From Candidatus Iainarchaeum sp. (GTDB lineage: Archaea > Micrarchaeota > Micrarchaeia > Anstonellales > Bilamarchaeaceae): a DNA stretch of 32,630 bases. Position 1 is the first letter of the stretch, and every line of letters starts with the position of its first letter. The notes below the pieces were generated by a model, which was given only the letters and a program-made list of their open reading frames with translations, made no database searches and was not told where the DNA came from. The translations under genes were made by a program, and so were the position numbers. Below, piece after piece: positions 7,247-30,712 of the stretch. Where the stretch lies: the NCBI GenBank assembly GCA_028714535.1, contig JAQTME010000011.1, positions 1 through 32,630 on the forward strand, written 5' to 3'.

Positions 7247-7765
7247 ATGCCAACCCTGCGCATTCTCATCGCCCTCATGGTCGCCCTGCCTTGCGCGTTC
7301 CCAGCCCTCGGCCTCTCAGGCGCGTCCATCGAATACGGGTTCAACGGCTCCTCATTCTCTGCAATCAGCCCCATGTGCGCGATAAACACCGGCGGCGAGG
7401 CCGTAAGCGCATCCCTCTCTGCCAACGACTCGTGCATCATGGCAACTTTCGCCAACGGCATGAATGCGACGCAGATAGCGCCGGGCGGCGAGGAGTGCAT
7501 CTCCCTGGAGCCGCTCTGCGGGAACGTTTCGGCGAACTCAGTGAAAATAACCGCCACCCTGGCCGGCACAAGCGTCAGCGCTGCTGTCGCCCGCTCGGCG
7601 AAGATAACCTCCTTGCCGGCAGCCGGCATCCCGCAAAACGCCTCAACCCCTCAAAACAGCGGCGCCCAGCCATCCGGCGCGCCTTATGAAATCGTTTTAA
7701 TACTTGTCATAGTAATTGCTGCGGTGTCCGCATGGTATTTGACAAAATATCACTATCCGCATTGA
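7247..7765 (+). CDS. Small secreted protein with C-terminal membrane anchor
   Basis: 172 residues from the ATG at 7247; the frame is open to a TTG at 7226, but the TATA spacing favours 7247. Residues 1-24 form a signal peptide (MPTLRILIALMVALPCAF...). An extracellular part of about 100 residues follows, with several N-X-S/T sequons and four to five cysteines. A Pro/Ser/Asn/Gln-rich linker leads to a single C-terminal membrane helix (about 147-165: EIVLILVIVIAAVSAW) and a short cytoplasmic tail. It is probably a membrane-anchored surface protein. No known domain was recognised. Its 3' end overlaps the next gene by 34 nt, so the two are likely expressed together. Confidence 0.75.
   Translation: MPTLRILIALMVALPCAFPALGLSGASIEYGFNGSSFSAISPMCAINTGGEAVSASLSANDSCIMATFANGMNATQIAPGGEECISLEPLCGNVSANSVKITATLAGTSVSAAVARSAKITSLPAAGIPQNASTPQNSGAQPSGAPYEIVLILVIVIAAVSAWYLTKYHYPH
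7695..7702 (+). promoter_or_regulatory. Possible internal TATA box before the Cys-rich membrane protein gene
   Basis: TTTTAATA inside the end of the preceding gene lies about 33 nt before the ATG at 7732. It could give this gene its own transcript in addition to read-through from upstream. The spacing is slightly long and the box also encodes membrane-helix codons, so support is weak. Confidence 0.35.
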
Positions 7766-13156: not shown

Positions 13157-14722
13157 ATGCAGCAAGGTCCACAACAGTCCCCGAAAGGTCCCCAGCATTC
13201 CAATCCTTCCCTGGCCGCCACTACGAACCACGCCGTAATGACGATGAGATCTCCGGGTTCCCCGCTGGTTGATGCGCAGGACCCGTTTAAGGGAAGGGTC
13301 ATCACAAGCGACATCGCACAGTACAGGATTTTAGATAAGATAGGCGCCGGCGGCATGGGCGTGGTTTACAAGGCTGAAAAAATCAGCCCCCCTTCCAACG
13401 ACAGCATCGTCGCGGTGAAGTTCCTCGGCCAGGACGCGGCAACGGCAGGGCCTGACACTATGGAACGCTTCCGTCGGGAAGCCTATGTCCTGAGCAAGTT
13501 GAAGCACCCTCACATAGTGGAGCTGAGGGACTTCGGCAAGGACAGCCACATGTTCCTTGTCATGGAATACCTGGACGGGCGCAGCCTGGCTGCCGAGCTT
13601 CCTGACCTGACGAAGGGTGAGCCCAAAAACCCCAAACTGCTCGCCTGGGACCGGATAAAAAGCATCCTGCTCCAGACCTGCGACGGGCTGTCAGCTGCAC
13701 ACTCCAAGAACATATACCATCGCGACATAAAGCCGGAAAATATAGTCCTGATCAAACACAACGAGATGGCGGACTGGGTCAAGCTCCTTGACTTCGGCAC
13801 TGCCAAAGATACCTCGAACGTCACCCTGACCCAAACAGGGATGGTTGTAGGTACGCTCCTATACCTGCCCCCCGAAGCCTTCATGTTCCCGGAAGAGTTT
13901 GCGGAACTGTTCGGAGACGTGTCCAAGGACCGCCTTAACATCGCCAGGGAGGTCTACAGCACAGGCGCGGTCCTGTACCAACTGCTTACTGGCACCACCC
14001 CGTTCTACGCAACGTCCAATGCGGTCCTGGCACGCCAGGTTTTAACCGAACCAGTGATCCCTCCGTCCCAACGCGCGCCATTCCGGGGCATACCCCGTGA
14101 CTTGGACAGATTCTTCGTGGATGCGCTCGCCAAGGGCCCCCTTGAACGTTTCCATTCCATCGATGCATTCAGATATGCGTTGAATTCAATAGAATGGGAC
14201 GGCCTCCGCAGGCGGACCTTCAGCGGCTTCAGGGCAAAGCGCAAGCTCGGCTTCCTGACCAAGATAGTTCTTGGCGCGGCGCTCGTTATAGGCGCTGGCT
14301 GGGTCATCACGAACCCCGACCGGGTCCGTTCTTTCTTCACCAACGCCCAGCACGACACGTATTCCTTTTACAACGACCATATACGCCCGTCTTTCCTGAA
14401 GCACAATTTCAATGTCCCCAAGGCCCAGCTTCCTGAAAGGAAATACTCGGTATCCATAACCTCCAACGTGGATAGCGCCAGGGTGTACCTGAACGTCGCC
14501 GGGAAGCGGGAATACGTGGGCATGACCCCGCTGACATATCCCCTCAGCGGCGAGATCACGCGCACCTTCACTGTCAAGCACAACAAGCAGGTCCAGCAGG
14601 TGAGCGTTTCGCCAAATAAAACAGCAGTGACCGTGCATTTCGCCGCACCGCACCCTCAGAAGCCAAAACGCCAACCCGAGCCAGAGGATACTGAGGATTC
14701 TATAGAAGTAGGAAGTGAGTAG
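13157..14722 (+). CDS. Membrane Ser/Thr protein kinase with PEGA-like C-terminal domain (bacterial PknB type)
   Basis: 521 residues. A Pro/Gln/Ser-rich N-terminus (about 1-50) precedes a complete Hanks-type kinase domain. It has the glycine loop GAGGMGVVYK from residue 63, the ATP lysine K88 in VAVKFL, and the catalytic loop HRDIKPEN at 188-195. DFG is at 212-214, followed by GTLLYLPPEAF and REVYSTGAVLYQLLTGTTPF. All residues needed for activity are present. After the kinase comes one membrane helix (about 370-388) and an outer segment with a PEGA-like repeat (about 430-495: VDSARVYLNV...GMTPLTYPL). The layout (kinase inside, sensor outside) matches bacterial PknB-type receptors rather than the RIO or Bud32 kinases common to archaea, so bacterial origin is likely. 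Kinase 2 follows directly, then a TadA-like ATPase. Confidence 0.9.
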   Translation: MQQGPQQSPKGPQHSNPSLAATTNHAVMTMRSPGSPLVDAQDPFKGRVITSDIAQYRILDKIGAGGMGVVYKAEKISPPSNDSIVAVKFLGQDAATAGPDTMERFRREAYVLSKLKHPHIVELRDFGKDSHMFLVMEYLDGRSLAAELPDLTKGEPKNPKLLAWDRIKSILLQTCDGLSAAHSKNIYHRDIKPENIVLIKHNEMADWVKLLDFGTAKDTSNVTLTQTGMVVGTLLYLPPEAFMFPEEFAELFGDVSKDRLNIAREVYSTGAVLYQLLTGTTPFYATSNAVLARQVLTEPVIPPSQRAPFRGIPRDLDRFFVDALAKGPLERFHSIDAFRYALNSIEWDGLRRRTFSGFRAKRKLGFLTKIVLGAALVIGAGWVITNPDRVRSFFTNAQHDTYSFYNDHIRPSFLKHNFNVPKAQLPERKYSVSITSNVDSARVYLNVAGKREYVGMTPLTYPLSGEITRTFTVKHNKQVQQVSVSPNKTAVTVHFAAPHPQKPKRQPEPEDTEDSIEVGSE

Positions 14723-14729
14723 CGATCAC

Positions 14730-16190
14730 ATGGCAGCACACAGATCCAGCGGTCCGCTTAGTAAAAAGGACGCGCCACGGCCACTGGTCATGAAAGACCC
14801 CCTCGTTGGCAAGACCGTGCCCAATCGCTACCATCCTGAGCAGAGGTATCGTATCGAAGCCCTGCTGGGCTCGGGCGGCAATGCCAAGGTATACCGGGCC
14901 GTTGACCAGACAACCGAAAATCCGGTTGCACTTAAGTTCGCACCGACGCTGGAAGAAATAAGGCAGAAGGCAAATCTGAGCAACACCGAGGCCCTCGCGC
15001 AACAAAAAGACATATACCTGCGCTTCATGCGGGAAGCCGAAACTCTGAAAAACATAAGCTATCCACCGCTCGGCCACTCGAACGTCGTCAAGGTATACGG
15101 GGCCGGAGGGATAGATGTGGAGGGAAGTGCTGAGCCGCTGCCCTACATGGCCATGGAACTCATCGACGGCATGCTGCTGCCGCAACTTCTTGAGAATGGG
15201 CCGATACTGTGGCCGGATACAAAGAGCATCTTCCTCCAGGTCTGTGACGCTCTTACCTACGTCCATCAAAAAGGAATCCTCCACCGTGACCTCAAATGGA
15301 ACAACGTCGTGCTCAAGATGCTTTCCGAGGACCTCCGTAAGCTTTCGTGTGAGACTTACCATGCAACCCTCATAGACTTCGGTTCGGTGTTGCTGCCAGA
15401 TGCCCGTACCATGACGATAAGCGGGGCCACCCTCGGCACCATGCCCTACATGTCCCCGGAGCAGCTGAACAACTCCCACAATGTAACCGTCAGGTCGGAG
15501 GTATATTCCCTCGGCTGTATGCTGTACGAGATTATTACGGGAAGCCTGCCGTTTGTTTCACAGGAGCAAGTCCCGCTCATGACTTCCATAATGCAGGACA
15601 AACCAGAATCGCCCCGGAAGCGCGCTCCGGACCGCGGCATACCCCGGCAGCTGTGCGCAATCGCCCTCACGGCGCTTGAGAAGAAACCGGAAAACCGCTA
15701 CCCCGACGTCAGGGCCCTGGCAGCTGCCATAAGCAGCGTCAAGTGGAACGACAAAGGGCCGCGCAAAACGCTCCACCCCATCCTCTGGCTTACGAAGCAT
15801 CCTCGCACATTCGGCCTCGCCATCGGCGCCACAGCTCTTGTGGCGGCCGGAAGCGGCTTCTGCCTTTATAATCACTTCCGCACGCCAGAGATGGCTGCAA
15901 CCCCGGCTCCTGCTGCAATGCCTGCCAGGCCTCTAACCGAGCCGCCTATCGCTGAACCAGCGGATTCAGGAGGGCTTAAGCCGGAGGCTGAAAGCACCGC
16001 GGTGGACAGCCTCAAGCCGAAGCCTGAAACGCTTTCAACCACTATGCGGCCCCCTCCGTATTCAAATCCATACAAGCTCAAAAAACCTGCCAAAAGGCCG
16101 CCAGCGGCAAAAAAAGACACTCTCCACGGGGCTGCCAAACGCCCGTTAATCACCCCCCACCTCCGCTACAACACCCCGCAAAAACGCTAG
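14730..16190 (+). CDS. Second membrane Ser/Thr protein kinase
   Basis: 486 residues from ATG 14730; a GTG at 14715, overlapping the stop of kinase 1 by 8 nt, is the alternative start. The Hanks motifs are complete: GSGGNAKVYR from residue 47, K69 in VALKFA, HRDLKWNN at 185-192, DFG at 216-218, GTMPYMSPEQL and SEVYSLGCMLYEIITGSLPF. A single membrane helix lies at about 361-379. The outside part is a disordered Pro/Ala/Lys-rich stalk with no folded sensor (repeats such as LKPEAES and LKPKPETLS). It is related to kinase 1 but diverged, so this is a kinase pair rather than a recent copy. The two genes are almost certainly co-transcribed. Substrates are unknown; the following TadA-like ATPase is a candidate by position only. 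Confidence 0.88.
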   Translation: MAAHRSSGPLSKKDAPRPLVMKDPLVGKTVPNRYHPEQRYRIEALLGSGGNAKVYRAVDQTTENPVALKFAPTLEEIRQKANLSNTEALAQQKDIYLRFMREAETLKNISYPPLGHSNVVKVYGAGGIDVEGSAEPLPYMAMELIDGMLLPQLLENGPILWPDTKSIFLQVCDALTYVHQKGILHRDLKWNNVVLKMLSEDLRKLSCETYHATLIDFGSVLLPDARTMTISGATLGTMPYMSPEQLNNSHNVTVRSEVYSLGCMLYEIITGSLPFVSQEQVPLMTSIMQDKPESPRKRAPDRGIPRQLCAIALTALEKKPENRYPDVRALAAAISSVKWNDKGPRKTLHPILWLTKHPRTFGLAIGATALVAAGSGFCLYNHFRTPEMAATPAPAAMPARPLTEPPIAEPADSGGLKPEAESTAVDSLKPKPETLSTTMRPPPYSNPYKLKKPAKRPPAAKKDTLHGAAKRPLITPHLRYNTPQKR

Positions 16191-16210: not shown

Positions 16211-16229
16211 CCGATTGGATAGTAGGCGC

Positions 16230-18737
16230 ATGTGCAACCTGTATCTCGAAGGCACCAGAGCCATAGTGGACTTGGCCAAATGCCCCTATGAGTTCGCCTC
16301 CCCCGAGTTCCTCAACCTCCACCTGAAAGACCTGTCGACGACCGAATCGCCAATAAAGACCATCCGCTACGAAGAGGAGATTGTCGTCGAGCTGGATGAG
16401 CAGAAGAGTCTCATACTGACCGAATATGCGGCGTTCATCCGCCAACTGGAGATGATAATCCTCAGGGAGGACATCTACGGCCTCAAGCAGGACCCTGCCT
16501 ACGACACCAGGCGGGCGCTGATAAAGCGCTTCTACGAATACGTGTTCCTCAATCCGCTCCTTGCCGCGCAGCAGCTGGACGACTATAACGAAAACGAGCC
16601 CGAGAAGTCAATATACCAGAAGGGCTTCCAGACCTTCAAGGGCTGGGTGGCAGGCATACTGAAGCGGTACACCTCCACCCGGCTATACAACCTTGTGAAG
16701 GAAACCGGCGACCTGCGCGCGGCATTCCTGCAGATCGTCGGGCTTAAGACGCTCTATTTCGTCCCGTCCCTTGTCCTGGACATCCCAAAGAACGCAGTTC
16801 CCATCAACACGCCTGAGGGTCACTACATGCTTCCGTTCGGCGTGGAAGTGCAGATATACGAGATTCCGGGCGAGGAGGCGTACCTCTACGTCCAGAAGAA
16901 CAATTCCATATCCGCCCTGAAGCCTGAGCTGAACAAGCTGCTGAAGGCGACCATAAACGAGCAGTTCAAGGAGCAGTTCACCAACGTGGACTGGGACATC
17001 CTCATGAACCTCAAGACCAGGGAGTACAGGCAGTTCTTCATAGACAAGGCGCTCATAGAGGGCATCCCGATAACGCCGCAGGAAGCCATGGCCATGGGCC
17101 GCGAGTGCTCGGCCTGGGTGGTCGGCCTCGGCGCGCATATAGAGAACCTCGCACTTGACAAGGAGAACGTCACTGACATCTACATAGACAGCGAGAACTC
17201 GCCCCTGTACATCGAGCACAGGAAGTTCGGGCTGTGCCACACGCTCTTCAGGTACAACCGCGACCTGCTCGACCACGCCTTCAGGAACATCGTCTATACG
17301 CTCAAGGGCGTGAGAAAATTCGACGAATCCAGCCCCATCCTCGACGTGGTGCTCAAGCGGCTTTCTATGAGGTGCCACCTCCAAAGGCCGCCGGCGACCT
17401 TCGAGGAGCTGCAGGGCGCGCTGAGGATAATGAAGGAGGAGCCTTTCACATACGCGCAATACCTCAACTTCCGCTCCTTCACGCCGTTCTTCGCAGGCTA
17501 CGACGACACCATGGTCTCGCTCGGCTGCTCCGAGGCGGTGCTCGGCCTGAAAGGCGTAGGAAAGACAGCGTTCACGGCTGCGAAAATAACCTCCATAGGC
17601 ACGCGCAGGAGGATAATCCCAGTCCAGGACATCGAGGAGATCCCGGTCCGCGCCTTCAGGAAGCGCGGCTTCCACATCGGCGCAGCCAGGGTGCAGAGCT
17701 CGGACTCCGAGGAAACCACGACCAAGGAGCTGGACCTGGTCACCATGGCAAACGTGCTCCTGCGCATGGGCGATGCCGCGCTCATCATCAACGAAGTGCG
17801 TTCCCGTGTCGCCGTGCAGGGCATCATCAACCTGCTCAACACCCAGCCCGGCGTGTTCCTCCTCTACAACCTGCACGCCGAATCGCTCCGCGACATCCAG
17901 GACCGGCTCGAACTGGTCTTCGGCATGCCGGCCGCCAGCATGTACGCGACCGACCGCTACACGTTCCTCAAGAAGATCAGGTTCGGCAGGCGCGGCAGGA
18001 TATACCGCGTCCTCGGCTTCGAGTACGAGAGCGACGTGGAGGAGAAGAAGTTCGTGGAGATATTCCGCTTCCGCCGCGGCGACGGCATAGAGAAGTGCAC
18101 CTGGGAGGCGAAGTTCGTGCGCAACCCCGAGGCCGCCCAATGGGACTTCAGCAAGGTTGACCTGAAGAAGCTGTCCAAGGACCTCGACCTGGCATTCATC
18201 CCGCCTGCCCTGGCCAGGAGGAGCGAGGAGACCGGCATATCGCCTGAGCAATACGTCATGCAGGCGTTCTGGAAGGGCAAGATGTACTATGACATCTACA
18301 GGCTGAGCCAGCAGCTGAACGACAAGCTGCTGCTCGAGCTGGACTTCGTCCTGAAGGTCAACACGGCCGCATCGAGGCTGCTCGTGTCCATGGAAAAGGA
18401 CCAGGGCGAGATAGACTTCGGCGATGCATGGGCCAAATGGGAGCCGATGTTCAAGGAAATCGTCAAGACCGAGGTGGAGAAAAGGAAGCTCGGCGGCCCG
18501 GTGGAGATACCGGAGGTCGCCGTAGCCGCGCCCGGCCGCACCGTCGGAGGACGGGAAGTGCCGCCTCCCCCTTCGAAAGCCGCAGAAGAGGAGGGGGCCG
18601 GCGAGGAAGAGGGGGAAGAGGAGCCGGAACCGCCCAGGCCTACGCCCAAAAAGGAGGCCAAAGAGACCACTACAAAATCACTGCTCGACCGCCTCCGGGA
18701 GAAGAAAAAGGAGTCAGAGAAGAAAGGGAAGAAGTAG
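16230..18737 (+). CDS. Type II/IV secretion system ATPase, TadA/CpaF/VirB11-like
   Basis: 835 residues from ATG 16230; the frame is open to a TTG at 16215, but the TATA spacing favours the ATG. The core matches the GspE/TadA/FlaI family. VTDIYID and LYIEHRKFG mark the N-terminal domain, RLSMRCHLQRPP the linker and RIIPVQDIEEI the Asp box. The Walker A GLKGVGKT is at 439-446, the Walker B with INEVRS at about 520-525, and the His box reads YNLHAES. The P-loop departs from the usual TGSGKT. Such ATPases power pilus assembly, archaella or secretion. At least 200 extra N-terminal residues and a Glu/Pro/Lys-rich tail (about 755-835, ending KKKESEKKGKK) make it longer than most relatives. No TadC-type membrane partner, pilin or archaellin is beside it, so the machine it drives cannot be named. 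Two membrane kinases lie just upstream. Confidence 0.9.
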   Translation: MCNLYLEGTRAIVDLAKCPYEFASPEFLNLHLKDLSTTESPIKTIRYEEEIVVELDEQKSLILTEYAAFIRQLEMIILREDIYGLKQDPAYDTRRALIKRFYEYVFLNPLLAAQQLDDYNENEPEKSIYQKGFQTFKGWVAGILKRYTSTRLYNLVKETGDLRAAFLQIVGLKTLYFVPSLVLDIPKNAVPINTPEGHYMLPFGVEVQIYEIPGEEAYLYVQKNNSISALKPELNKLLKATINEQFKEQFTNVDWDILMNLKTREYRQFFIDKALIEGIPITPQEAMAMGRECSAWVVGLGAHIENLALDKENVTDIYIDSENSPLYIEHRKFGLCHTLFRYNRDLLDHAFRNIVYTLKGVRKFDESSPILDVVLKRLSMRCHLQRPPATFEELQGALRIMKEEPFTYAQYLNFRSFTPFFAGYDDTMVSLGCSEAVLGLKGVGKTAFTAAKITSIGTRRRIIPVQDIEEIPVRAFRKRGFHIGAARVQSSDSEETTTKELDLVTMANVLLRMGDAALIINEVRSRVAVQGIINLLNTQPGVFLLYNLHAESLRDIQDRLELVFGMPAASMYATDRYTFLKKIRFGRRGRIYRVLGFEYESDVEEKKFVEIFRFRRGDGIEKCTWEAKFVRNPEAAQWDFSKVDLKKLSKDLDLAFIPPALARRSEETGISPEQYVMQAFWKGKMYYDIYRLSQQLNDKLLLELDFVLKVNTAASRLLVSMEKDQGEIDFGDAWAKWEPMFKEIVKTEVEKRKLGGPVEIPEVAVAAPGRTVGGREVPPPPSKAAEEEGAGEEEGEEEPEPPRPTPKKEAKETTTKSLLDRLREKKKESEKKGKK

Positions 18738-20764: not shown

Positions 20765-22177
20765 TCAGCGGATGGGGCGAGTGGGGTCATACCCACGGAC
20801 GTAATAGCCGCCGAAGCTGTATTTCCCGTACAGGAACGGGATTTCCGGGTGGAGTGTTTCACATCTAAAAGTGCCCTTCTCATATCTCAGTTGCAAATCC
20901 GCCATCATCAACCTTGTTATGTTATCGGTGGTCATGCTCGCAAGCCTTTGGTAGCGGACATAGAATTCAAGTTCCCTTGGCGTTATATCGCTGTAGTCCA
21001 GTCCGCTGGCGCTTTCTGCGCCCATGCCCCTGATTAGGTACAGCATTTCCTTGCCTTCCTTCTCATCCACGATTGAGCTCCGGTCTTTGTCAGCATAGAT
21101 GTAGGCTTCTCTCCAGAGCGCCCGGTAAGCCAGATTTTCCCTGTCGGCGAGCAGTCCCCATCCAGCAGCGATCACCGCCACTGCGGTTCCAAGCGCCACG
21201 GCCGCATATTTCAGTCCCCGTAACAGCCTTCTCATCCATCTCTTTTCGACCGCGGACTGGTCATAGATGCCCTTGCCTGTGTTTATGATGACTACTGTGT
21301 CAGTAGGTTTGAGGTCGTATTTCACAGCGCCGCAGAACGCAGCCGCCGCGGACGGCTCTGCTGAAATGCCATGTGCATTCAGCCACTTGTACTCTCCTGC
21401 CAGCTCCCCTTCGCCGGCAGTCCTGAGCTCTATCCTGCCCTCGGCAACCATCTTCTTGACCAGAGGGTTGAACTTCGAGTATCCGCTCACCAGCTTGTCT
21501 GCTATGCTCCGTCCTGGCTTTTTGAGGAATTCCTTCGCCTTCGCCAGGATGTTCTGCCTTATGGTCACGCCGACGATTTTCGGGGCCCCATTGCCCCAGG
21601 TTTCGGCTGCCTGGGCTGCAAGCTCGGTTGCAAGTTCCCCGCCGCCAACAGGGCAGAAGATGTAGGTCGGCTTTACGCCGTCTGCGGCGATTTCCTTGAT
21701 TATCTGGCGGTAGCCATCCACAAGGCCGTGGCTTTCGACGCTGATGACGTTCTTTTCATCCACATGCCTGCCTGTCCGTTCACTCACGCACCTCATGGCA
21801 ATGTCCCTGAGCGCATCATCGCTTATTATCCCGCGTGAGAGGTCCATCCGATGGACGATTGAGCAGCTTTCCAGCTTTTTTCTTACGGCCCTTGGAATGC
21901 CCTTGTCTACGACGTTGACAACCTGCACCTTCTGGCCGTTTTTATCGTTCCAGGCATTCGCCAGCATGCCCATGCTGTACCCTGAATTGCCTGAAGTTAT
22001 GTGCACAAAAATCGCGTTCGGGTTGTCTGAGGCCTCTAGGAGGGCGACACAACGCCTGTCCTTGAACGTGCCGAAGGGGGTCTTATCCTCCCTCTTGACG
22101 TAGACGGTGGCGCCACACCTGCCGGTGAGCTCTATGCTCTTGTATAACGGGGTGCTGCCTACCTTTAGCTGGCCCAT
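20765..22177 (-). CDS. PLP fold-type II enzyme (threonine synthase-like) fused to membrane helix and EF-hand-like domain
   Basis: 470 residues. Residues 1-305 are a threonine synthase/cysteine synthase-type PLP enzyme. The Schiff-base lysine is expected at K39 in GTFKDRR, SGNSG lies at 62-66, and the glycine-rich phosphate loop GGGELA is at 178-183. EPSAAAAF is at 274-281 and NTGKG near 299-303. Residues 323-344 form a membrane helix. The part beyond it holds an EF-hand-like loop D363-E374 (DKDRSSIVDEKE) and an aromatic C-terminal region. Family members are normally soluble, so this would be a membrane-tethered enzyme with a possible calcium-binding domain outside. A Met at 315 (MRRLLRGLKY) begins what could once have been a separate small protein. 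The substrate is uncertain; no other threonine-pathway gene is nearby. Confidence 0.85.
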   Translation of the reverse strand: MGQLKVGSTPLYKSIELTGRCGATVYVKREDKTPFGTFKDRRCVALLEASDNPNAIFVHITSGNSGYSMGMLANAWNDKNGQKVQVVNVVDKGIPRAVRKKLESCSIVHRMDLSRGIISDDALRDIAMRCVSERTGRHVDEKNVISVESHGLVDGYRQIIKEIAADGVKPTYIFCPVGGGELATELAAQAAETWGNGAPKIVGVTIRQNILAKAKEFLKKPGRSIADKLVSGYSKFNPLVKKMVAEGRIELRTAGEGELAGEYKWLNAHGISAEPSAAAAFCGAVKYDLKPTDTVVIINTGKGIYDQSAVEKRWMRRLLRGLKYAAVALGTAVAVIAAGWGLLADRENLAYRALWREAYIYADKDRSSIVDEKEGKEMLYLIRGMGAESASGLDYSDITPRELEFYVRYQRLASMTTDNITRLMMADLQLRYEKGTFRCETLHPEIPFLYGKYSFGGYYVRGYDPTRPIR

Positions 22178-22328: not shown

Positions 22329-24422
22329 ATGGAAGTAAGGGAAATGCACCTCTACTCGGAAAAGGTGGAGGCCGAGGACGTCAAGAACCTGTTCAACAGG
22401 GTCACCAAGTCCAGTTTCCCGCTTTTCGGCTTCCTGGAGCTTTCCGAGATCCTCTCCCTGAACGCCCTGACGCTGGTGGTGAAGCGCAACAACAACACCG
22501 TCCGGTTCTACCTCAAGGAGAAGGGATGTCTCCAGAACATATCCGCGCTCGTCTTCCCGTTCAGGCTCTGCGAAACGACTATTCTCAAGCTCTCCCACGG
22601 CTCCTTCTTCCCGTTCCCGCGCATGTACATGATAGGCGGCGGCAGCCACGACTTGCTGGACTTCATACTCAAGGAGAAGATAGAGCAGCTCACGCTCAAC
22701 ATCACGAAGGTGCTGGGCAAGTCCGTGGTGACCGGCACGGCCATAGACGAGAACGGCCACAAGGGCATAGTGTCCATAGCCAGCCCGGACAAGTTCCTGA
22801 AAATCAACCTGGAGAAGAACCCGTCCATCTACATCGAGCTGCTTGAGCCCCTGCCCAAGCAGATATCCATGAGCTCGCGCTACCCTGTCTTCGAGGAGCA
22901 GGGCATGAGCATGGGGGTGGACAACTTCGACCCCCTGCAGCACACGGTCATAGCAGGCACGTCCGGCTCAGGCAAGACCAAGGGCATGTACGTGCTCCTC
23001 AAGGCGGTGGAGGAGAAATACAGGGATGGCGTCAGGGTGGTGGTCGTGGACCCCCACGGCGAGTTCGCCAAGCTGCTCCCCCACGCGCACATCGTGAACT
23101 TCGTTGACAATTATGTAGAGCCGCTTGACGTGGGAAGGGACCGCACGCCCATGCTGACGCAGCTGGTGTCCCAGCTGCTGGCGTCATCCGTCGGCCAGGA
23201 GAACAAATACTCGGAGAGGGTGCTGTTCTACACGGTCCACCTGCTCTCATCCATAGGCAAGCTGAGCCTGGGCAACATAAGCCTGCTCCTGACCGACCCG
23301 TCTGTCAAGGCCGAGTACGTCGGCATGTGCGACAATGACGAGGTGAAGCGGTTCTTCGACGAGGAATACAATGACATACACATGCACCACTTCAACGATG
23401 CGATACTCCCGATACTCAACTTCATAGGCGAATACCAGCTCTACCTGGGCAAGGAGAAGAAGCAGGAGAGCCTGCAGGAGCTGCTCAGGAAGAACAGGAT
23501 CACAATCATCTCGTTCGACCCGCACTTCTTCGGGAGGCGCATGATAAGCTTCCTCGCAGGCGCGGTGATAAACCAGATGTACATAATGGCCATAACCGGC
23601 AAGCTCCAGGAGAAGCCCACCGTGCTCGTCGTAGACGAGTTCCCGCGGGTGGAGACAAGGGTCACCAAGGACATTCTCGCCGAGACGAGGAAATTCAACC
23701 TCTTCGCAAGGCTCTCCTGCCAGTATCTCGGCCAGCTCAGCAAGGAGGTCCTGGACTCCATAGTGTCCAACTCCCGCAACATCATATGCTTCAAGGTGAA
23801 CAGGCAGGACGCGACCATGCTCAGTTCCATCATGGAGATAAAGGTCGAGGAGTATTTCAAGAAGCACAGGGCGACGACCGAGCTGGAGGAATCCAAGAAG
23901 GAGATGTTCGTCAGGCTCCACCAGCGGGAGTGCATAGTGCGGCTGTTCGACGGCAACAAATACCTCCTGCCCATGAAGGTCAGGATAGTGGACGTTGCCA
24001 AATGGGGGCTGAGGGACGGCGTTGCCCCGCCCTACCAGCCGGCGCGCAGCCCACCCGGTCCATCCCCTTATCCTTCAGCCAGGGCTCCTGTGCCCGCTGA
24101 CAGTACCGAGTTCCCTCCGGCTGCCAGGGGCCTCTACTACAATGGAGCGCAGCCCAGGGGCCGGGAAGCAGGCGTAGGGGAAGGGGATCGGGAAGCAGGC
24201 GAGCAGCAGGACGGCGGTGAGCAGCAGAACGAGGATAAGGCGAGGCAGGAGAGGCCTGAACTGCCAGGGCCCATGGAGGAGAACGCCCTCCTCAGGGAGA
24301 CCCCTGAGGCGATATACCAGCTCGAGAAGGCAAAGCTCGCAGCAGTGCAGAACGGCGCTCCCAAGCCGCCCCCGGCAGAGCCTTCCTCCGGCGCAAAAGG
24401 CGGCAAAAAGCCGAAAAAGTGA
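22329..24422 (+). CDS. HerA/VirB4-like translocation ATPase
   Basis: 697 residues. An N-terminal domain of about 190 residues precedes a RecA-like ATPase of the HerA/FtsK/VirB4 class. Walker A GTSGSGKT is at 210-217, followed by VVVVDPHGEF, and Walker B VLVVDEFPRV has D436 and E437. A sensor-like segment LSCQYLGQL and NSRNIICFKV follow, as in VirB4/TraG-type proteins. The last ~130 residues are a disordered Pro/Gly/Gln/Glu-rich tail ending in KGGKKPKK. HerA proteins pump DNA during repair with NurA; VirB4-type proteins drive type IV secretion. No nurA, mre11 or rad50 is adjacent, and a TadA-like ATPase is encoded 3.6 kb upstream, so a secretion or DNA-transfer role is possible but unproven. 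The gene ends 2 nt from the convergent module protein B. Confidence 0.88.
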   Translation: MEVREMHLYSEKVEAEDVKNLFNRVTKSSFPLFGFLELSEILSLNALTLVVKRNNNTVRFYLKEKGCLQNISALVFPFRLCETTILKLSHGSFFPFPRMYMIGGGSHDLLDFILKEKIEQLTLNITKVLGKSVVTGTAIDENGHKGIVSIASPDKFLKINLEKNPSIYIELLEPLPKQISMSSRYPVFEEQGMSMGVDNFDPLQHTVIAGTSGSGKTKGMYVLLKAVEEKYRDGVRVVVVDPHGEFAKLLPHAHIVNFVDNYVEPLDVGRDRTPMLTQLVSQLLASSVGQENKYSERVLFYTVHLLSSIGKLSLGNISLLLTDPSVKAEYVGMCDNDEVKRFFDEEYNDIHMHHFNDAILPILNFIGEYQLYLGKEKKQESLQELLRKNRITIISFDPHFFGRRMISFLAGAVINQMYIMAITGKLQEKPTVLVVDEFPRVETRVTKDILAETRKFNLFARLSCQYLGQLSKEVLDSIVSNSRNIICFKVNRQDATMLSSIMEIKVEEYFKKHRATTELEESKKEMFVRLHQRECIVRLFDGNKYLLPMKVRIVDVAKWGLRDGVAPPYQPARSPPGPSPYPSARAPVPADSTEFPPAARGLYYNGAQPRGREAGVGEGDREAGEQQDGGEQQNEDKARQERPELPGPMEENALLRETPEAIYQLEKAKLAAVQNGAPKPPPAEPSSGAKGGKKPKK

Positions 24423-24424
24423 CG

Positions 24425-26026
24425 CTATCTCATGTACTCCGAGTAGTGTAGCTTGGACTTCTTCCCACTTATCCCGAAGATGCTCCAGGGAATGTCGCCG
24501 CTCTTCTCCAGCTCACCGGCAATCTGCCCGATTAGGGAGTTCCGTATGCCCTTGTACTTGCCCTGCTCGAGTTCCATGTTGCCTATTGCGTGCCGCTTAC
24601 CCTTCGCATTGTAGCAGAACATGGAGTCCATCAGGCCCTCGGAATTGTGGCAGAACATCGAGCCGGTGCAGTTCGACGAGCTGTCCATCTCCAGGCACCT
24701 GCTGAGGTGCGCGGAATTGTAGCACTTCAGGCAGAACTCGGACTCCACAATTCTGTAACAGCCGAAGGTGTATTTTGAATTGAGGCTCATGGAACCGAGG
24801 CCCGCGTATTCACAAAAGGTCGCGTCGTAGATGCGGTACACATTCGACGCGTTAAAAACCAGCGGCGACTCTATCGCGTTCCTGATCTCGCCGTCAGCCA
24901 TTTCCGCCGTGAAGAATGCAATCTCCCCGAGGCCGTCCCTTATGCGGTCGAGGGAGCCGAGGAACTTCTCATCCATCCTCCTCCCGCCCAGCGCCATGGC
25001 CTCCCGGAACGACACCGTCCTGCCGGGCGGCAGCATGGAGAAATACGCCAGCGCCTCGTCATCCGGCAGTAACGTGCGGCGGCCGAACGGCGATTGCGTT
25101 TCCTTCACCGAAGGTATGGACTTGAGCAGCCATTTCTCGTACCTCCCGACGCCCTTTGTCTCCCCACCTAGCAGGACTCTGAAGGTGGAAGAGAATGCCT
25201 TCTCGATAGGCTCCATCTCCGCCTTTTCGTCCACTGCCTCCAACGAAAGTGAACCCCCTCCCTTCTTTTCCCGTACCATCTCCATCAGCGAGGGCAGCTT
25301 TTTCCTAGCGACCAGATCATCCCGCATCTCGGCCAGCAGCTTTGACTTCAGCGCCACATATCTGTCTTTCGGAAGCTCGATATTGCCGATGCAGCAGCGC
25401 TTGTGCCTCTGGGAGAACGAGAACATCATGTCATGGCAGCCGAGCATGTTGTGGGAGTAGTAGATATCGCTGCAGTCCGCCAGGAGACTGCTGTCAAGCA
25501 CCCTGCTGTCGTTGAAGCCTGCGAACAGCCGGATTGCGAACTCGCTCTTGCCGGCGTATCCGGCGCCGAACGAGTACTTGCTGCCGGTCCTCATCATGAA
25601 GGACGAATCGACGTAGGCCGAGTCCGTGATGGTCGTGGAATTGTACACGTTCTGCGAGTCCATGACGATGTCGGACGATTCCACCATGGAAGAATTGCCC
25701 TGCACCCGGTTGCCTGTGTATTCCCACCGCTCCGACACGGCCCGGACCAGCGAGTCCATGTCCTTTATGTCGTTGATGCTGAGCGGCTCCGTCTTCCGCC
25801 CCGTTATCTCGTCCATGGAGATGAAGCGCGCGCCGTCGCAGTAGCGTGGGTTGGCGACGGTCACGTCCCTGCCGGATACGTGAGACTTCACCCTTCCCAC
25901 CGGCGGCAGGTATTCGCCCAGCCATTCCTCATAGTCCTTCAGCTCGCCGACCTCCCCGCCGAGGACGACCCTGCAGGTGGTTTTCCACGCCTTGTTAAGC
26001 GTGCTATAAAGCTGGGGCGACATCAT
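24425..26026 (-). CDS. Duplicated-module Cys/Ser/Asn-rich protein B (unknown function)
   Basis: 533 residues from the first of two tandem ATGs; the start overlaps the stop of protein A (ATGA) and follows GGGAGG. A longer in-frame extension inside gene A is rejected. The protein has two copies of a ~260-residue module. Each opens with a helical part holding a [VL]LGGE-type motif (RVVLGGE at 19-25, RVLLGGE at 283-289). A run of short Ser/Asn/Cys-rich repeats follows, such as NSSMVESSDIVMDSQNVYNS and CYNSAHLSRCLEM. Each module ends with an IGN motif (213-215, 481-483) and a helical tail (LPKDRYVALKSKLL). The repeats look like a right-handed parallel beta-helix. From memory, the ends resemble hypothetical proteins of CPR bacteria and DPANN archaea sometimes labelled CaiB/BaiF. 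No enzyme motif, signal peptide or membrane helix is seen. Confidence 0.8.
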   Translation of the reverse strand: MMSPQLYSTLNKAWKTTCRVVLGGEVGELKDYEEWLGEYLPPVGRVKSHVSGRDVTVANPRYCDGARFISMDEITGRKTEPLSINDIKDMDSLVRAVSERWEYTGNRVQGNSSMVESSDIVMDSQNVYNSTTITDSAYVDSSFMMRTGSKYSFGAGYAGKSEFAIRLFAGFNDSRVLDSSLLADCSDIYYSHNMLGCHDMMFSFSQRHKRCCIGNIELPKDRYVALKSKLLAEMRDDLVARKKLPSLMEMVREKKGGGSLSLEAVDEKAEMEPIEKAFSSTFRVLLGGETKGVGRYEKWLLKSIPSVKETQSPFGRRTLLPDDEALAYFSMLPPGRTVSFREAMALGGRRMDEKFLGSLDRIRDGLGEIAFFTAEMADGEIRNAIESPLVFNASNVYRIYDATFCEYAGLGSMSLNSKYTFGCYRIVESEFCLKCYNSAHLSRCLEMDSSSNCTGSMFCHNSEGLMDSMFCYNAKGKRHAIGNMELEQGKYKGIRNSLIGQIAGELEKSGDIPWSIFGISGKKSKLHYSEYMR

Positions 26027-27612
26027 GTTACCGGCCTCCCGCCGATGTTGTAGATGTCCCATTTCAGCTCCTTGTTCTGCTCCAGCTCGTCGGCCATCTG
26101 GGCGAGCAGTGCCCCCTTCACCCTCCTGTACTGCTCCGGCGGCAGCGGGCTGTTGCCTATGGCCGAATGGAGGTTCTTGGCGTTGAAGCAGAACATCGCG
26201 TCTCGCGCGTTCTCGCAGTTGTGCGCGAAATACACGTCCGAACAGTTGTTGCAGCCGTCCGCTTCGAAGGCCCGCGAGAGGTTCGTGGAATAGTTCGCAT
26301 TCATGCAGAAGCTTGAAAGGAACGCCAGCGCAGAGCCGAACATGTATTTCGAGTTCCTCGCCCAGTAGGAATAGGCTGTGTTCTCGTTGAAGGACGCTAT
26401 GCCGCAATGGTAGCAGTTCAGTGATGTGTTCACCACGGCCACTTCCGGGATGTTCCTGCTCTCGCCCACCATGCCCTCTGGGCAGAAGTAGGCGATGCGC
26501 CCTGCGGCCTTTTTCAGCTTTTCAAAGCTTTCTATCTCTGAAGGCTCGAGTTTCGTGAGGACGCCCATCTTCCAGACCTCGTCCTGCTTCACCAACCTGT
26601 CCTTGAGCATGAGATTGTAGGGCACTATGTCATTCACGTATACCGACCGGCCGCTCACCACAGATCTCGCCTTTTGAGTGGCAGGAACGTGCCTCATGAG
26701 CCAGTTTTCGTAGCTCCGGAGGCCATCCAGCGGCCGCCCAAGCAGGACGCCCGTGGTCTTCCGGAACGCCTCCTCCATGGGCTCCAGGTCGCCTGCCTGC
26801 TCAGCATCAGGCTCCGGGAGCTCCACCCTCGTGAGGGGTGCGCTCGACGATATTATGTCCATCAGGGAAGGGAGCCGCCCCTTGCGCTCCAGTTCCTCAC
26901 GCATCTCGCCGACCAGTTTCGCCTTGAGCGCGAGGTATTTATCCTTCGGCAGTTCCAGGTTGCCGATGACGTGCCTCCTGTTCCTCAGGTTGAAGGAGAA
27001 GATCGCCTCCTGCGACGCCTCGACGCAGGAGCTGAAGTAGCAGTCGCTGGACTCGAAGCACTCCCATGCCTCGAAGCACCTGGCCTGCTTGAAAGTCTCG
27101 AAAACCCTTATCATGTGCGAGGACGAGCGGTCGCTGAAGACGCTGAAAAGGTATTTGCTGTCGCTGCAATATGAGCTGTAAGCCACGTACTTGCAGTCGT
27201 GGATGAAGTTGGCGTTGAGCACGTGGAAGGAGTTGTGCACGTCGGAACTCTGTTCCACGTTGCTGGAATTGCCCAGCACCATATTGCCGCAGTAGGCGAA
27301 CCGTTCGCCTAGCGCGTCGATGATTGAATCAATGTCCTTTATCTCATTGATGTTCAGCGGCGCGAACTTCTGCCCGAAATCTATCTCTTCCAGCGAGAGG
27401 AACCTGGCTCCGGGGGCGTAGTCCGGCATGGCACAGCACACGTCCTTCCCGGAAAGCGCTGATTTCTTCTTCAGCATCGGTGCCATGTGCTCGCTGAGCC
27501 ACGGCTCGTACCTCCCCAATTCGCCTATCTCGCCGCCAAGGAGCACCCTACAGGTCGATTTCCATGCCCTGTTCAATGCTTCATATGCCTGTGAGTTTGG
27601 AGGGTTATTCAT
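26023..27612 (-). CDS. Duplicated-module Cys/Ser/Asn-rich protein A (unknown function, paralogue of B)
   Basis: 529 residues. It has the same two-module design as the gene that follows. Module 1 runs about 8-255, with CRVLLGGEIGELGRYEPWL from 21, a Ser/Cys/Asn-rich ladder at about 113-208, and RRHVIGNLELPKDKY from 212. Module 2 runs about 277-520, with GVLLGRP at 288, a ladder at about 390-475 including YFAHNCENARDAMFCFNAKN, and IGN at 485-487. The ladder is consistent with short beta-helix coils, and many cysteines (SDCYFSSC, DGCNNCSD) may bind metal or pair. The first module contains SGKDV and the second SGRSV at matching positions. The protein appears cytoplasmic. The start ATG sits about 28 nt after a strong TATA box. 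The gene is translationally coupled to its paralogue, so four modules are made in one operon. Confidence 0.8.
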   Translation of the reverse strand: MNNPPNSQAYEALNRAWKSTCRVLLGGEIGELGRYEPWLSEHMAPMLKKKSALSGKDVCCAMPDYAPGARFLSLEEIDFGQKFAPLNINEIKDIDSIIDALGERFAYCGNMVLGNSSNVEQSSDVHNSFHVLNANFIHDCKYVAYSSYCSDSKYLFSVFSDRSSSHMIRVFETFKQARCFEAWECFESSDCYFSSCVEASQEAIFSFNLRNRRHVIGNLELPKDKYLALKAKLVGEMREELERKGRLPSLMDIISSSAPLTRVELPEPDAEQAGDLEPMEEAFRKTTGVLLGRPLDGLRSYENWLMRHVPATQKARSVVSGRSVYVNDIVPYNLMLKDRLVKQDEVWKMGVLTKLEPSEIESFEKLKKAAGRIAYFCPEGMVGESRNIPEVAVVNTSLNCYHCGIASFNENTAYSYWARNSKYMFGSALAFLSSFCMNANYSTNLSRAFEADGCNNCSDVYFAHNCENARDAMFCFNAKNLHSAIGNSPLPPEQYRRVKGALLAQMADELEQNKELKWDIYNIGGRPVT

Positions 27613-27635
27613 GTCGTTATATTAGTTACAACCGC

Positions 27636-27643
27636 ATATATAT
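27636..27643 (-). promoter_or_regulatory. TATA box of the two-gene module operon
   Basis: ATATATAT is centred about 28 nt before the ATG at 27612, a leaderless arrangement. The short gap to the upstream regulator gene holds nothing else. Confidence 0.6.
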
Positions 27644-27665
27644 CGCCGACGCCGTTGTAGAGCGG

Positions 27666-28382
27666 TTACTTCATGAATCTCATGATGTCGTTCAGCACTG
27701 GCAGCAGTTTCCGCTCCGCCTTGCGCAACAATTCAGCATATGTCGACGGGCTGACGCCCAGCCGGCCTGCGAGCTCCTCTATGCTGGTCTTCTTCGGCTC
27801 CTCGTAATAGCCGTAGCGGCAGGCCAGGTCGAACGCCTCCATCTGCCTCTCGGTGAGCAGCTGGCTGGCGAACTTGAGCTTGGTGAACCCCGAGGTGCGG
27901 AAGGTGTCCAGGGAGACCGCCTCATCCGGCTTGATGTAGTGCTTGGACTTGATTTTCAGGTCGTACCCCTTCTCCTTTACAAGGTCCATGAACGCCCTGA
28001 GGTTCTTGTAGCTCGGCGCCAGCATGGTGACGTGGTCCACGTCCTTCTCGGTCCAGGTCGGCTGCAGCCACATGGTGCCTGTCTTCGCCAGGTAGGGCGC
28101 CGTGGCGACCGTCTTGTCCTGCCGCACCGTCAGTTGGGACCGCTTCGGCCCCAGCAGGACCACCTGCACTTCCCTCACATTCCTGTGTTCCCTCAGCTTT
28201 CTTACCGTCAGCTTCAGGTGCTCGCTGTCCACCTCGAACAGGTTCGTGACGGTCTTATTGTCGCCGCCGACTGTGGAGAGCCACTTTATCCTGACGTCCC
28301 TGAGCCTGTCGCATACCTCGATGGAGGTGCACTGGTGCGACTGCTCCAGCTCGACTATGAGCGGCTGGTTCTTCTCAGGCAT
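27666..28382 (-). CDS. HTH_10 (Bat-type) transcriptional regulator
   Basis: 238 residues. The C-terminal ~60 residues are a classic HTH_10 domain (PF04967): LTERQMEAFDLACRYGYYEEP, then SIEELAGRLGVSPSTYAELLRKAE. The N-terminal ~175 residues are a sensory or dimerisation part without recognisable PAS or GAF motifs; they contain several possible metal-ligand residues (HQCTS, EVCDR), but no clear site. Proteins of this family regulate bacteriorhodopsin (Bat) and other genes in archaea. It is divergent from inositol-1-phosphate synthase and lies 53 nt upstream of the module genes on the same strand, so either could be a target. Autoregulation is also possible. The start at 28382 is supported by a TATA box about 28 nt upstream. 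Confidence 0.88.
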   Translation of the reverse strand: MPEKNQPLIVELEQSHQCTSIEVCDRLRDVRIKWLSTVGGDNKTVTNLFEVDSEHLKLTVRKLREHRNVREVQVVLLGPKRSQLTVRQDKTVATAPYLAKTGTMWLQPTWTEKDVDHVTMLAPSYKNLRAFMDLVKEKGYDLKIKSKHYIKPDEAVSLDTFRTSGFTKLKFASQLLTERQMEAFDLACRYGYYEEPKKTSIEELAGRLGVSPSTYAELLRKAERKLLPVLNDIMRFMK

Positions 28383-28497: not shown

Positions 28498-29607
28498 ATG
28501 CCAAAGATAAGGTGTGCGGTCGTCGGCGTGGGGAATTGCTTCGCAGGGCTCGTCCAGGGGATTGAATATTACAAGCGGCACCCAGAAGAGAAAGTGATTG
28601 GTGTCATGCATGAAAAGATTGGGGGATACACCATCCAGGATATCGAGTTCGTCGCTTCTTTCGATGTCGGCGAGAACAAGGTTGGCAAATCCCTCGGTAA
28701 GGCCGTATACGAGTATCCTAACAAAGTGCGGTGGACAGATGCTGTTTCCTGCTGTTCGGGAATCGTGAAAGAGGCCCCTATACTGGACGGCATCGGTATT
28801 TACGTCGAAAACATGATAAAACCCATAAAACAGACAAAGACCGTAAAACAGCTGAAGGAAGAGGCCGTTGCGGAGATAAAACGGACCGGTGCGAGGATAA
28901 TCCTGAACCACCTCCCCGTGGGTTCGCAGAAGGCGACCGAGTTCTGGGCCGAAGTCGCCCTCGAAACCGGCTGCGGCATGGTCAATGCGATGCCCGTATT
29001 CATAGCCAGTACCCCCGCCTGGGCCAAGCGGTTCAAAGAGAAGGGCCTGCCTGTCCTGGGAGATGATTACAAAGGCATGGTGGGGGCCACAATAGTCCAC
29101 AGGACGCTCGCCAAGCTCTGTGATATGCGTGGCACAAAAATAGACAAAACATATCAGATTAACGTCGGTGGGAATACCGACTTCAGCAACATGCTGGAAC
29201 GTAGCAGGCTGCAGAGCAAGAAGATTTCCAAGACCGAGTCTGTCCAGTCCCAGCTCTCCCAAAGGCTCGAAGACGATCAGATTTACGTCGGTCCATCTGA
29301 TTTCATACCCTTCCTCGGCAACACCAAGCTGATGTTCATGCGCATTGAAGGCCGCATGTGGGCCAACATTCCGTACAATCTGGAGGTGCGACTGGAGGTC
29401 GACGACAAAGCGAATTCCAGCGGCGTGTCAGCCGATGCGCTCAGGTACGTGCAATTCGCTCTGGATAAGAAGATTGGAGGCCCTCTAATCGGGCCCAGTG
29501 CCTGGCTGATGAAGCACCCACCGTTCCAGTTCAGCGACAGCGAAGCGAAAGACCTGGCAGACCGTTTCGAGAAGGAAGGATTCAATACGCCTCCTTCAGG
29601 CCGCTAA
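28498..29607 (+). CDS. ino1: Myo-inositol-1-phosphate synthase
   Basis: 369 residues from ATG 28498, chosen for the GGTGA Shine-Dalgarno; an in-frame upstream ATG at 28453 lies in the promoter. The enzyme makes L-myo-inositol 1-phosphate from glucose 6-phosphate using NAD+, the first step toward archaeal inositol phospholipids (archaetidylinositol) and solutes such as di-inositol phosphate. Family features seen are the NAD-binding start CAVVGVGNCFAGLVQG, SFDVGENKVGKSL, NHLPVGSQKATEFWA, CGMVNAMPVFIAS, and the active-site region GDDYKGMVGATIVHR followed by NVGGNTDFSNM. The length is normal for archaeal and actinobacterial enzymes. Its codons look less GC-rich than the ligase and ATPase genes. 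The last 26 bases overlap the end of the convergent endonuclease gene. Confidence 0.95.
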   Translation: MPKIRCAVVGVGNCFAGLVQGIEYYKRHPEEKVIGVMHEKIGGYTIQDIEFVASFDVGENKVGKSLGKAVYEYPNKVRWTDAVSCCSGIVKEAPILDGIGIYVENMIKPIKQTKTVKQLKEEAVAEIKRTGARIILNHLPVGSQKATEFWAEVALETGCGMVNAMPVFIASTPAWAKRFKEKGLPVLGDDYKGMVGATIVHRTLAKLCDMRGTKIDKTYQINVGGNTDFSNMLERSRLQSKKISKTESVQSQLSQRLEDDQIYVGPSDFIPFLGNTKLMFMRIEGRMWANIPYNLEVRLEVDDKANSSGVSADALRYVQFALDKKIGGPLIGPSAWLMKHPPFQFSDSEAKDLADRFEKEGFNTPPSGR

Positions 29608-30598
29608 AATCAAACGGGTCTATCGACTTCCGTCCCAGTGCCTTCAAGGCGCCGTTTAACATATCCGCAGGTATGCCAGACTCTCCCCTCCGCATGTGTT
29701 CGAATTGTCTGTACGTATATTCCATTTTTGATAAATTATTTACTATCTCGACGGCTTCTCTATCTGTGCCGGTTTTGAGCTTTAACTCCTGCAATATGTG
29801 CGAACCGTATCTGATGCGGCGATGGGTGCGAAGCCGTAAAACAACTAATCTCAATTTGTCTTTCTTCTTTTTGTTCAGAAATCCTATATGCTTGTAAAAA
29901 TTAATGACTGAACGGCCATTTGTTACGAATAGCATGAGCGTGAATTTGTCTTTCTTGCAATGTCTGACGTGGATTTTGCCGCTTTTGATTCCGAATTCGG
30001 AAAGAATGGCAGCCAGTTGCTCCAAAAAAGCCTCGCCGCTTTTTATGAAATCCATGTGCTTGTTGGTTACAAAATTAAGTGCTACTGCAGTGTGCCTTTG
30101 CTTCTTCAATGAAAGGCTGCCATCGAAGTTGAAGAGAATTTTGAGAAAGGAGGCTTTGATTTTGTGCGTGCCATTCACTACCCATCCCGGAACGAGGTAC
30201 GCAGTTTTGGTTTTGTCTCCATAAGGAATACCTATAGACGCGAGCAGTTTTGCGAGAGGCGCTGAATGTATGACCGCTTTGTAAGAGTAAGCATCTGAGA
30301 ACCCCGTTGCAGGTTTGTACCTGACGGTTCGACCCATGACCCCGAATCTGGCGTAAATCAATCTGAGAAACCATGCGCATTCCAACCGGTCATCTGAATA
30401 AAGAACTATCTTGCACATTTTCGGCTTTCCGTTCCTGAGCTGAAATGCTAAGTGTCCATCACTCATGAGTGCCGCAGCTATCGCTGCGAGTTCTTTTGAG
30501 GCAAACAACGGGAACCAGCTCCTTGCGGTGTTGATTTCGTATGGTTGAATCTCGTTTTTGGAAAGAAACTCATGAACCCTCAAAATGACTGTTCTCAT
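29582..30598 (-). CDS. Free-standing LAGLIDADG endonuclease-like protein with C-terminal HTH-like region
   Basis: 338 residues from ATG 30598, chosen because a TATA box lies about 27 nt upstream; the open frame extends to an ATG at 30643, which has no promoter. Two LAGLIDADG helices are recognisable: LAAIAAALMSDG at 37-48 (acidic residue D47) and FLKILFNFDGSL at 151-162 (D159). Each is followed by a basic beta region, giving a single-chain two-repeat enzyme. The C-terminal part (about 285-325: MEYTYRQFEHMRRGESGIPA) looks like a Cro/C1-type helix-turn-helix. Base composition is clearly more AT-rich than both neighbours, a sign of transfer. It is not within an intron or intein, since both neighbours are intact. 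It may be a homing endonuclease or a domesticated regulator of WhiA type. Both acidic residues are kept, so cleavage activity is possible. Confidence 0.8.
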   Translation of the reverse strand: MRTVILRVHEFLSKNEIQPYEINTARSWFPLFASKELAAIAAALMSDGHLAFQLRNGKPKMCKIVLYSDDRLECAWFLRLIYARFGVMGRTVRYKPATGFSDAYSYKAVIHSAPLAKLLASIGIPYGDKTKTAYLVPGWVVNGTHKIKASFLKILFNFDGSLSLKKQRHTAVALNFVTNKHMDFIKSGEAFLEQLAAILSEFGIKSGKIHVRHCKKDKFTLMLFVTNGRSVINFYKHIGFLNKKKKDKLRLVVLRLRTHRRIRYGSHILQELKLKTGTDREAVEIVNNLSKMEYTYRQFEHMRRGESGIPADMLNGALKALGRKSIDPFDFSGLKEAY

Positions 30599-30620
30599 AC
30601 GCTGGTGACCTGAGCCGAGA

Positions 30621-30628
30621 ATATAAAG
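30621..30628 (-). promoter_or_regulatory. TATA box for the LAGLIDADG gene
   Basis: On the minus strand this reads CTTTATAT, centred about 27 nt before the ATG at 30598. It lies downstream of the alternative ATG at 30643, which is why the shorter protein is preferred. Confidence 0.6.
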
Positions 30629-30712
30629 ACTCGGGCGGTTCATTTCCGCGGAAACCCAGCGACGATGAGGCCCACAGGCAGGCAGACCTCTTCATCAAGG
30701 GCTGAACGCCTG

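Follow-up and report, generated by a model that had tools for sequence, protein, structure and literature searches.

We identified a family of cysteine-rich beta-solenoid proteins in Micrarchaeota that co-occurs with a HerA/VirD4-type ATPase, whose gene is usually found next to one of theirs. Two members, proteins A and B, are encoded within the window, by which we mean the whole 32,630-nucleotide stretch of DNA analysed, from a 1.14 Mb MAG. At the level of sequence we could show that the modules pair, how long the coil is, that the cysteines lie in the core, and that the genes are linked and co-occur. Quite possibly, although we put this somewhat short of probable, A and B belong to an undescribed motor-plus-solenoid system in which the solenoids serve as substrates or adaptors of an ATPase that moves or unfolds something. 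Among the libraries and papers searched we found no account of the family, nor any known system in which an ATPase of this kind is combined with proteins of this kind; the function is a proposal. The window contains the following features:

20765..22177, minus strand: PLP-dependent fold-type II enzyme homologue (PF00291, E 2e-30), transcribed divergently from the ATPase; a membrane helix is predicted at its C terminus
22329..24422, plus strand: HerA/VirD4-type ATPase, 697 aa, with DUF87 and TrwB_AAD_bind above the Pfam cut-off; runs towards B, and the two stop codons are 2 bases apart
24425..26026, minus strand: protein B, 533 aa, fused N-C solenoid pair; its start codon overlaps the stop codon of A (ATGA)
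24428..25252, minus strand: C-type module of B, boundary approximate (aligned with A)
25253..26026, minus strand: N-type module of B, boundary approximate (aligned with A)
26023..27612, minus strand: protein A, 529 aa, fused N-C solenoid pair (sequence; AlphaFold2 pLDDT 89.3, pTM 0.90)
26026..26826, minus strand: C-type module of A, residues 263-529 (half-half alignment, tree, profiles)
26152..26460, minus strand: ladder of the A C-module, residues 385-487 (column profiles, periodicity)
26827..27612, minus strand: N-type module of A, residues 1-262 (module tree and profiles)
26965..27276, minus strand: ladder of the A N-module, residues 113-216, 12-residue coils (periodicity)
27635..27644, minus strand: TATA-like box gatatatatg, starting ~30 bp before the ATG of A (sequence)
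27666..28382, minus strand: HTH_10 (bacterioopsin-activator type) regulator (PF04967, E 7e-19), directly upstream of A

A preliminary description of this DNA had read A and B as overlapping paralogues carrying four similar modules, each with a VLLGGE-type start and an IGN motif, and the sequences agree with it. Aligned over their full length, the two proteins share 39 % identity. Each contains two homologous modules of ~260 aa, with 29 % identity across 242 residues between the N and C halves of A (E 5e-30 in a two-sequence comparison). The ATGA overlap and both motifs were found, although the second module of A has VLLGRP instead. The ATG at 26026 is likely the start of B, a 660-aa ORF of B opening on TTG beginning too early. 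The TATA box that had been proposed before A corresponds to the TATA-like run at 27644-27635, whose spacing from the ATG is consistent with a leaderless transcript. A 19-residue hydropathy scan gave maximum means of 0.83 (A) and 0.58 (B) with no sign of a membrane segment, as had been expected, and neither signal peptide nor membrane segment is apparent in the modules. The earlier impression that the proteins belong to no known family also held, neither Pfam nor NCBIfam giving a match to A or B at a threshold as loose as E 10, the modules having no match in PADLOC, and searches of the PDB by sequence and by profile returning nothing significant.

The repeat ladder within each module is real and lies above chance. 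The family-mean hydrophobicity of the ladder displays strong peaks at periods of 3, 6 and 12 residues, and similarity between alignment columns is highest at lag 12 (0.42 in N-type and 0.35 in C-type modules), followed by lag 24 (0.31 and 0.26). None of 5000 shuffles reached the lag-12 similarity, including shuffles in which the 3-residue phase was preserved, and distant modules likewise peak at lag 12. Column similarity at lags 12 and 24 indicates a coil of 12 residues with four core positions, and judged by these sequence periodicities the ladder is a beta-solenoid in which every third residue faces the core, largely in line with the scaffold suggested earlier. AlphaFold2 returned two models (pLDDT 84.8 and 89.3, pTM 0.86 and 0.90) in which each ladder is flanked by predicted helical caps and the first coils per ladder are the least certain. 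Foldseek searches of the two models against the PDB, plus BFVD, produced no match with E < 0.05, and the solenoids therefore offer no significant structural match from which a function could be borrowed.

Cysteines account for 3.8-4.6 % of module residues, and those of the ladders occupy the core-facing phase in 95-96 % of cases (994 of 1050 in N-type and 1366 of 1427 in C-type modules). Cys makes up 90 % of alignment column 200 and 96 % of column 475, while most core Cys columns also tolerate Ser, Val, Ala, Thr or Ile. Core packing fits this pattern better than a set of ligands does, which gives no support to the metal binding through cysteines that the preliminary description had considered.

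The insect antifreeze protein TmAFP (PDB 1ezg) has a 12-residue coil with a core residue at every third position. The modules share this coil length and inward phase, but their profile match to TmAFP is weak and not significant (E 3.1), there is no Pfam match and no common family, and whereas TmAFP is extracellular and disulfide-linked with a TxT ice-binding face, the modules are cytosolic and Thr-poor. An ice-binding role was dropped because of the low Thr content, and a DNA-mimic role because the mean net charge is only ~ -0.5 to -0.7 per module. Left-handed hexapeptide beta-helix proteins (LpxD, gamma carbonic anhydrase) were the top Foldseek matches and recall the 6-residue sub-period of the modules; however, all of these matches had E > 0.05 and TM < 0.25, Pfam gave no match at E 10, and the 18-residue coil expected of this fold is at odds with a similarity at lag 18 of 0.18 (N) and 0.12 (C) against 0.42 and 0.35 at lag 12. 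A pentapeptide repeat was rejected on a negative lag-5 similarity and the lack of a Pfam match. The modules would represent a soluble cysteine-core solenoid whose 12-residue coil is near the smallest known.

In an unrooted tree of 187 modules all 72 first halves and all 72 second halves were placed in separate clades, with a support of 0.998 for the C clade and a low 0.10 for the N clade. Fusion genes were exclusively of the order N-C (n = 61; C-N, n = 0). Split single-module genes (~260 aa) were present in 27 loci (27 N and 26 C), and for 26 of the 27 split N genes the next gene is a C gene in the same orientation, at a gap of -86 to +53 bp, the remaining one extending to the end of its locus. 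Fusions restricted to N-C, together with split genes arranged N-then-C, are the pattern expected of two obligately pairing proteins with fusion as a later step, which makes an N·C heterodimer the probable working unit. Given that the natural unit is one N-type plus one C-type module, A and B each constitute a complete pair and are not two halves of one. The heteromeric design anticipated in the preliminary description is thereby retained, but not as a partnership of A with B: the evidence implies an N-module with a C-module within each gene or split gene pair. More distant relatives carry an unpaired single module (G097, G114, G231) or arrays of single modules (G187, G188), suggesting, on a tree that is not formally rooted, an evolutionary order from single module to pair to fusion.

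Relatives of the modules were detected in 46 of 99 near genomes and in 54 of 301 genomes of the phylum, or 52 with an independent profile built from distant single modules. Merging these searches and dropping one weak match gives ~53 positive genomes among the 301 of Micrarchaeota, the majority of the positives being Anstonellales. A match in G007 was treated as noise (5.7e-4 in the search that gave 54 genomes, missing with the distant-module profile), and what looked like a remnant in G047 is a module truncated by a contig end. The 75 loci that we retrieved from the genome collection all derive from Micrarchaeota or archaeal MAGs, in agreement with the DPANN origin proposed earlier; one genome of the same genus as that of the window is MAG LFW-283_2, Ca. 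Bilamarchaeum dharawalense (PMC8561730), which places the window in the Bilamarchaeaceae, order Anstonellales. Since many assemblies from separate studies carry the family, it is no artefact of assembly. In four genomes that were scored completely we counted 10 to 35 matches each, and we estimate that the family fills ~2-3 % of some reduced genomes (22-35 matches, most of them full-length and ~1.6 kb long, per genome of 1.3-1.8 Mb).

The nearest relative of a full-length protein lay within the same genome for only 8 of 133 proteins and in another genome for the other 125, with a median identity, under uneven sampling, of 37 % between paralogues of one genome and 55 % to the best match elsewhere. 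The paralogues are thus old lines maintained across species. Many fixed roles fit such paralogues better than rapid antigenic change does, and their age weakens the case for recent amplification or antigenic variation.

Tabulation of gene neighbours revealed the ATPase next door and the HTH_10 regulator upstream, both absent from the preliminary description, which had likewise missed how large and how old the family is. The ATPase is present in 51 of 301 genomes. Across the 301 genomes, ATPase and modules were found together in 50, modules alone in 3 (G018, G060, G074), the ATPase alone in 2 (G046, G052) and neither in 246, a table which counts one contig-end ATPase fragment in G231 and whose Fisher p of 8e-51 is inflated by shared ancestry, related genomes not being independent. 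Even in the genus of the window the distribution is patchy (6 of 17 genomes), and both parts come and go together. The gap from the ATPase to the nearest module is ≤ 800 bp in 36 genomes (tally from coordinates), and relatives of the ATPase adjoin module genes in almost all of the loci that we inspected. Most genomes have a single ATPase; a few have two or three matches, which are fragment-like. The distant relatives with an unpaired module have the ATPase next to it (G097, G114, G231) and G187 has it beside a head-to-tail array, on the same strand in each case. This position, directly upstream of a single module, indicates that the link predates pairing. We consider the linkage of motor and modules very probably functional.

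The ATPase has a Walker A motif (GTSGSGKT) and resembles the VirD4/TrwB coupling ATPases in matching both TrwB_AAD_bind (PF10412, 34.1 bits against a cut-off of 20.5) and the HerA central domain above the Pfam cut-offs; coupling proteins, moreover, work as one motor with many partners. It is thus VirD4-like in its core and a candidate coupling protein, but may differ from that group in having no convincing N-terminal membrane helices (19-residue hydropathy maximum 1.57 at residue 33, borderline) and no linked T4SS genes, neither T4SS channel genes nor a relaxase recurring beside it by neighbour clustering and reading of neighbourhoods; its module partners resemble no known substrate. CedD (NF053655) is its best NCBIfam relative, but at 41.7 bits it falls below the 600-bit equivalog cut-off, and membership of that family was rejected. 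CedD and CedB, which belong to the Ced system for DNA import in Crenarchaeota, are, like it, archaeal HerA-like ATPases with an extra N-terminal domain (PMC11868833). The CedD match is however limited to 66 residues, no Ced genes are linked to the window ATPase, and the passages of the source on which we draw report no counterpart of the solenoids (PMC11868833). Assignment to the HerA repair helicases (NF040819) was also rejected, with 18.5 bits against a cut-off of 970 and no NurA operon, Pfam scans of the window neighbours having returned no match to NurA; the neighbours of the ATPase are modules, the PLP enzyme and regulators. Two further DUF87 ATPases with VirB4/CedB-like sequence are encoded in the same genome.

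The order of an HTH_10 gene followed by a module gene recurs in many relatives, while dispersed module copies are often adjoined by a divergent Lrp/AsnC-type regulator. The HTH_10 family is also present in system-free genomes and is therefore a companion and not a marker. Of 43 genomes, 12 have a homologue of the PLP enzyme, including 2 without the system; it partners the ATPase in Bilamarchaeaceae only and may be part of a local version of the system or mere synteny. Glutamine synthetase, a ZIP transporter and purine genes are conserved beside dispersed copies and look like local synteny.

The motor-plus-solenoid reading can be laid out as follows. One part would be a single motor ATPase, hexamer-type and from the HerA-FtsK superfamily, near the VirD4/TrwB coupling proteins and CedD, and the other a repertoire of soluble beta-solenoids formed as obligate pairs of N-type and C-type modules with a cysteine-rich core. 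In the C ladder the second half is much more conserved than the first (column entropies), and the solenoid pairs may bind the ATPase, probably via these conserved last coils and the C-terminal helix, with the variable first coils, which differ among paralogues, giving each an individual role. The ATPase would then move or unfold protein or DNA, in what could be export to a partner cell, transfer of DNA or a process inside the cell, and each solenoid would be turned on by its own regulator of the HTH_10 or Lrp/AsnC type, as such genes adjoin many module genes. A translocation or coupling function is suggested by analogy with VirD4, one motor serving many substrates. That the solenoids act as dedicated substrates or adaptors we advance tentatively. 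Counting against the reading are the genomes that have one of the two parts alone, the occurrence of HTH_10 genes outside the system, the lack of a linked membrane channel or other T4SS gene, the lack of an apparent signal peptide or membrane segment in the modules, and the lack of a significant structural match for the solenoids.

Other readings account for parts of these data. A defence or conflict system, with the ATPase as effector or motor, the solenoid pairs as sensors and a patchy distribution through gain and loss, would suit the presence in 6 of 17 genomes of one genus, the numerous paralogues and the matches of the ATPase to the PADLOC mad8 (1.9e-13) and HerA (5e-7) models. These PADLOC matches are however partial and common to the whole superfamily, the modules match none of its models, no linked nuclease or toxin domain was identified, and the paralogues are old, with orthologues kept in other species, unlike fast-turnover defence genes; we consider this reading unlikely. 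Ced-type DNA exchange, in which the ATPase and CedB/VirB4-like proteins would act in DNA uptake or transfer with the solenoids regulating or gating it, is distinctly unlikely. It is favoured by the relation to CedD, by the two further VirB4/CedB-like ATPases of the same genome and by the cooperation of CedD and CedB in Sulfolobales (PMC11868833), but the CedD match is far below its cut-off and covers the Walker A region only, a CedA-type channel was not seen at the locus, and the near-zero net charge of the modules gives no DNA-mimic or DNA-binding signal.

The many copies, obligate heterodimers and solubility of the solenoid pairs, and the possibility of end-to-end stacking, would also be compatible with an internal scaffold, shell or filament whose assembly or disassembly is driven by the ATPase. 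The helical caps predicted on each ladder should block such stacking, the ~37 % identity of paralogues within a genome is unusual for subunits of one lattice, and filament assembly is unknown for HerA/VirD4 ATPases, making a structural system quite improbable. A metal- or redox-storage family that adjoins the ATPase by chance is highly improbable: the Cys content (3.8-4.6 %) and columns 200 and 475 (90 % and 96 % Cys) would fit it, but the cysteines lie in the core phase, most Cys columns accept Ser, Val, Ala, Thr or Ile, and chance linkage is excluded by the co-occurrence (p 8e-51).

DPANN archaea have very small genomes and mostly rely on partner cells, with which their mode of interaction is largely unknown. 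Were the motor-plus-solenoid reading confirmed, it would provide a defined, testable machine in these archaea. A broader version, in which ultra-small archaea, and perhaps CPR bacteria, contact partner cells by means of a VirD4/HerA-like motor that delivers, or acts through, up to ~35 ancient, individually regulated solenoid heterodimers with a 12-residue coil, is rather doubtful. Orphan VirD4 homologues are common in CPR bacteria, where 5,713 were counted in 2,918 genomes, only 148 of them near virB4 (PMC12102498), and these bacteria are a place to seek the motor-module link.

Viral contigs queried with A and with the family profile, and phages and plasmids searched by tblastn, yielded no relatives. 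Degenerate motif scans of viral contigs gave 36 matches attributable to chance, most of them in unrelated lysine-rich repeat proteins, and 1 true-looking fragment, at the end of contig L163, which reads CEGLRKKQYCILNKQYTKEEYEEIL (E 1.9e-7 in a small search) and whose NKQYTKEEY resembles the conserved C-terminal end of the ladder. The same end is matched in part by phrog_15341 (E 5.5e-5 with the distant module L129, 0.03 with A and B), although both likenesses are partial and neither shows module pairing or an ATPase. These two are the only independent traces of the likeness to CPR proteins that the preliminary description had raised. The C-terminal motif of unpaired modules (e.g. KKYCIANMQFTKEEY) also looks similar to that of CPR cysteine-repeat proteins, which we take to end in N-K-Q-Y-T-K-E-E-Y.

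Dispersed genes for the beta-solenoid modules were located close to a gene for a ZIP-type metal transporter or glutamine synthetase at a number of loci (L034, L044, L101 and L102; L081, L099 and L122), at each of which a regulator gene also adjoins the module genes. The proximity to the transporter and glutamine synthetase genes may reflect synteny. Genome searches identified two genomes, G046 (locus L212) and G052 (locus L213), in which the HerA/VirD4-type ATPase is kept and no module gene was found; the completeness of one of the two is given as 100%. Beside the ATPase gene, the window encodes a threonine-synthase-like PLP protein (20765-22177, minus strand) with an extra domain and a predicted C-terminal membrane helix, which scores far under every NCBIfam equivalog cut-off.

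At the end of the viral contig L163, the stretch 5830-5966 (plus strand) codes for a cysteine-repeat protein's C-terminal part, which carries an NKQYTKEEY-type motif like that of the unpaired modules. This contig has genes that were read as phage-tail-like.

Four large plus-strand ORFs of the window (3-5354, 5414-7207, 7732-9171 and 16215-18737) gave no Pfam matches at E 1e-4. Other genes include an overlapping pair of kinase genes, within a very small archaeal genome, and a free-standing LAGLIDADG gene:

13157-14722, plus strand: eukaryote-like Ser/Thr protein kinase (PF00069, E 7e-42)
14715-16190, plus strand: eukaryote-like Ser/Thr protein kinase (PF00069, E 1.5e-34)
29582-30643, minus strand: LAGLIDADG gene, flanked by inositol-1-phosphate synthase and ATP-dependent DNA ligase genes
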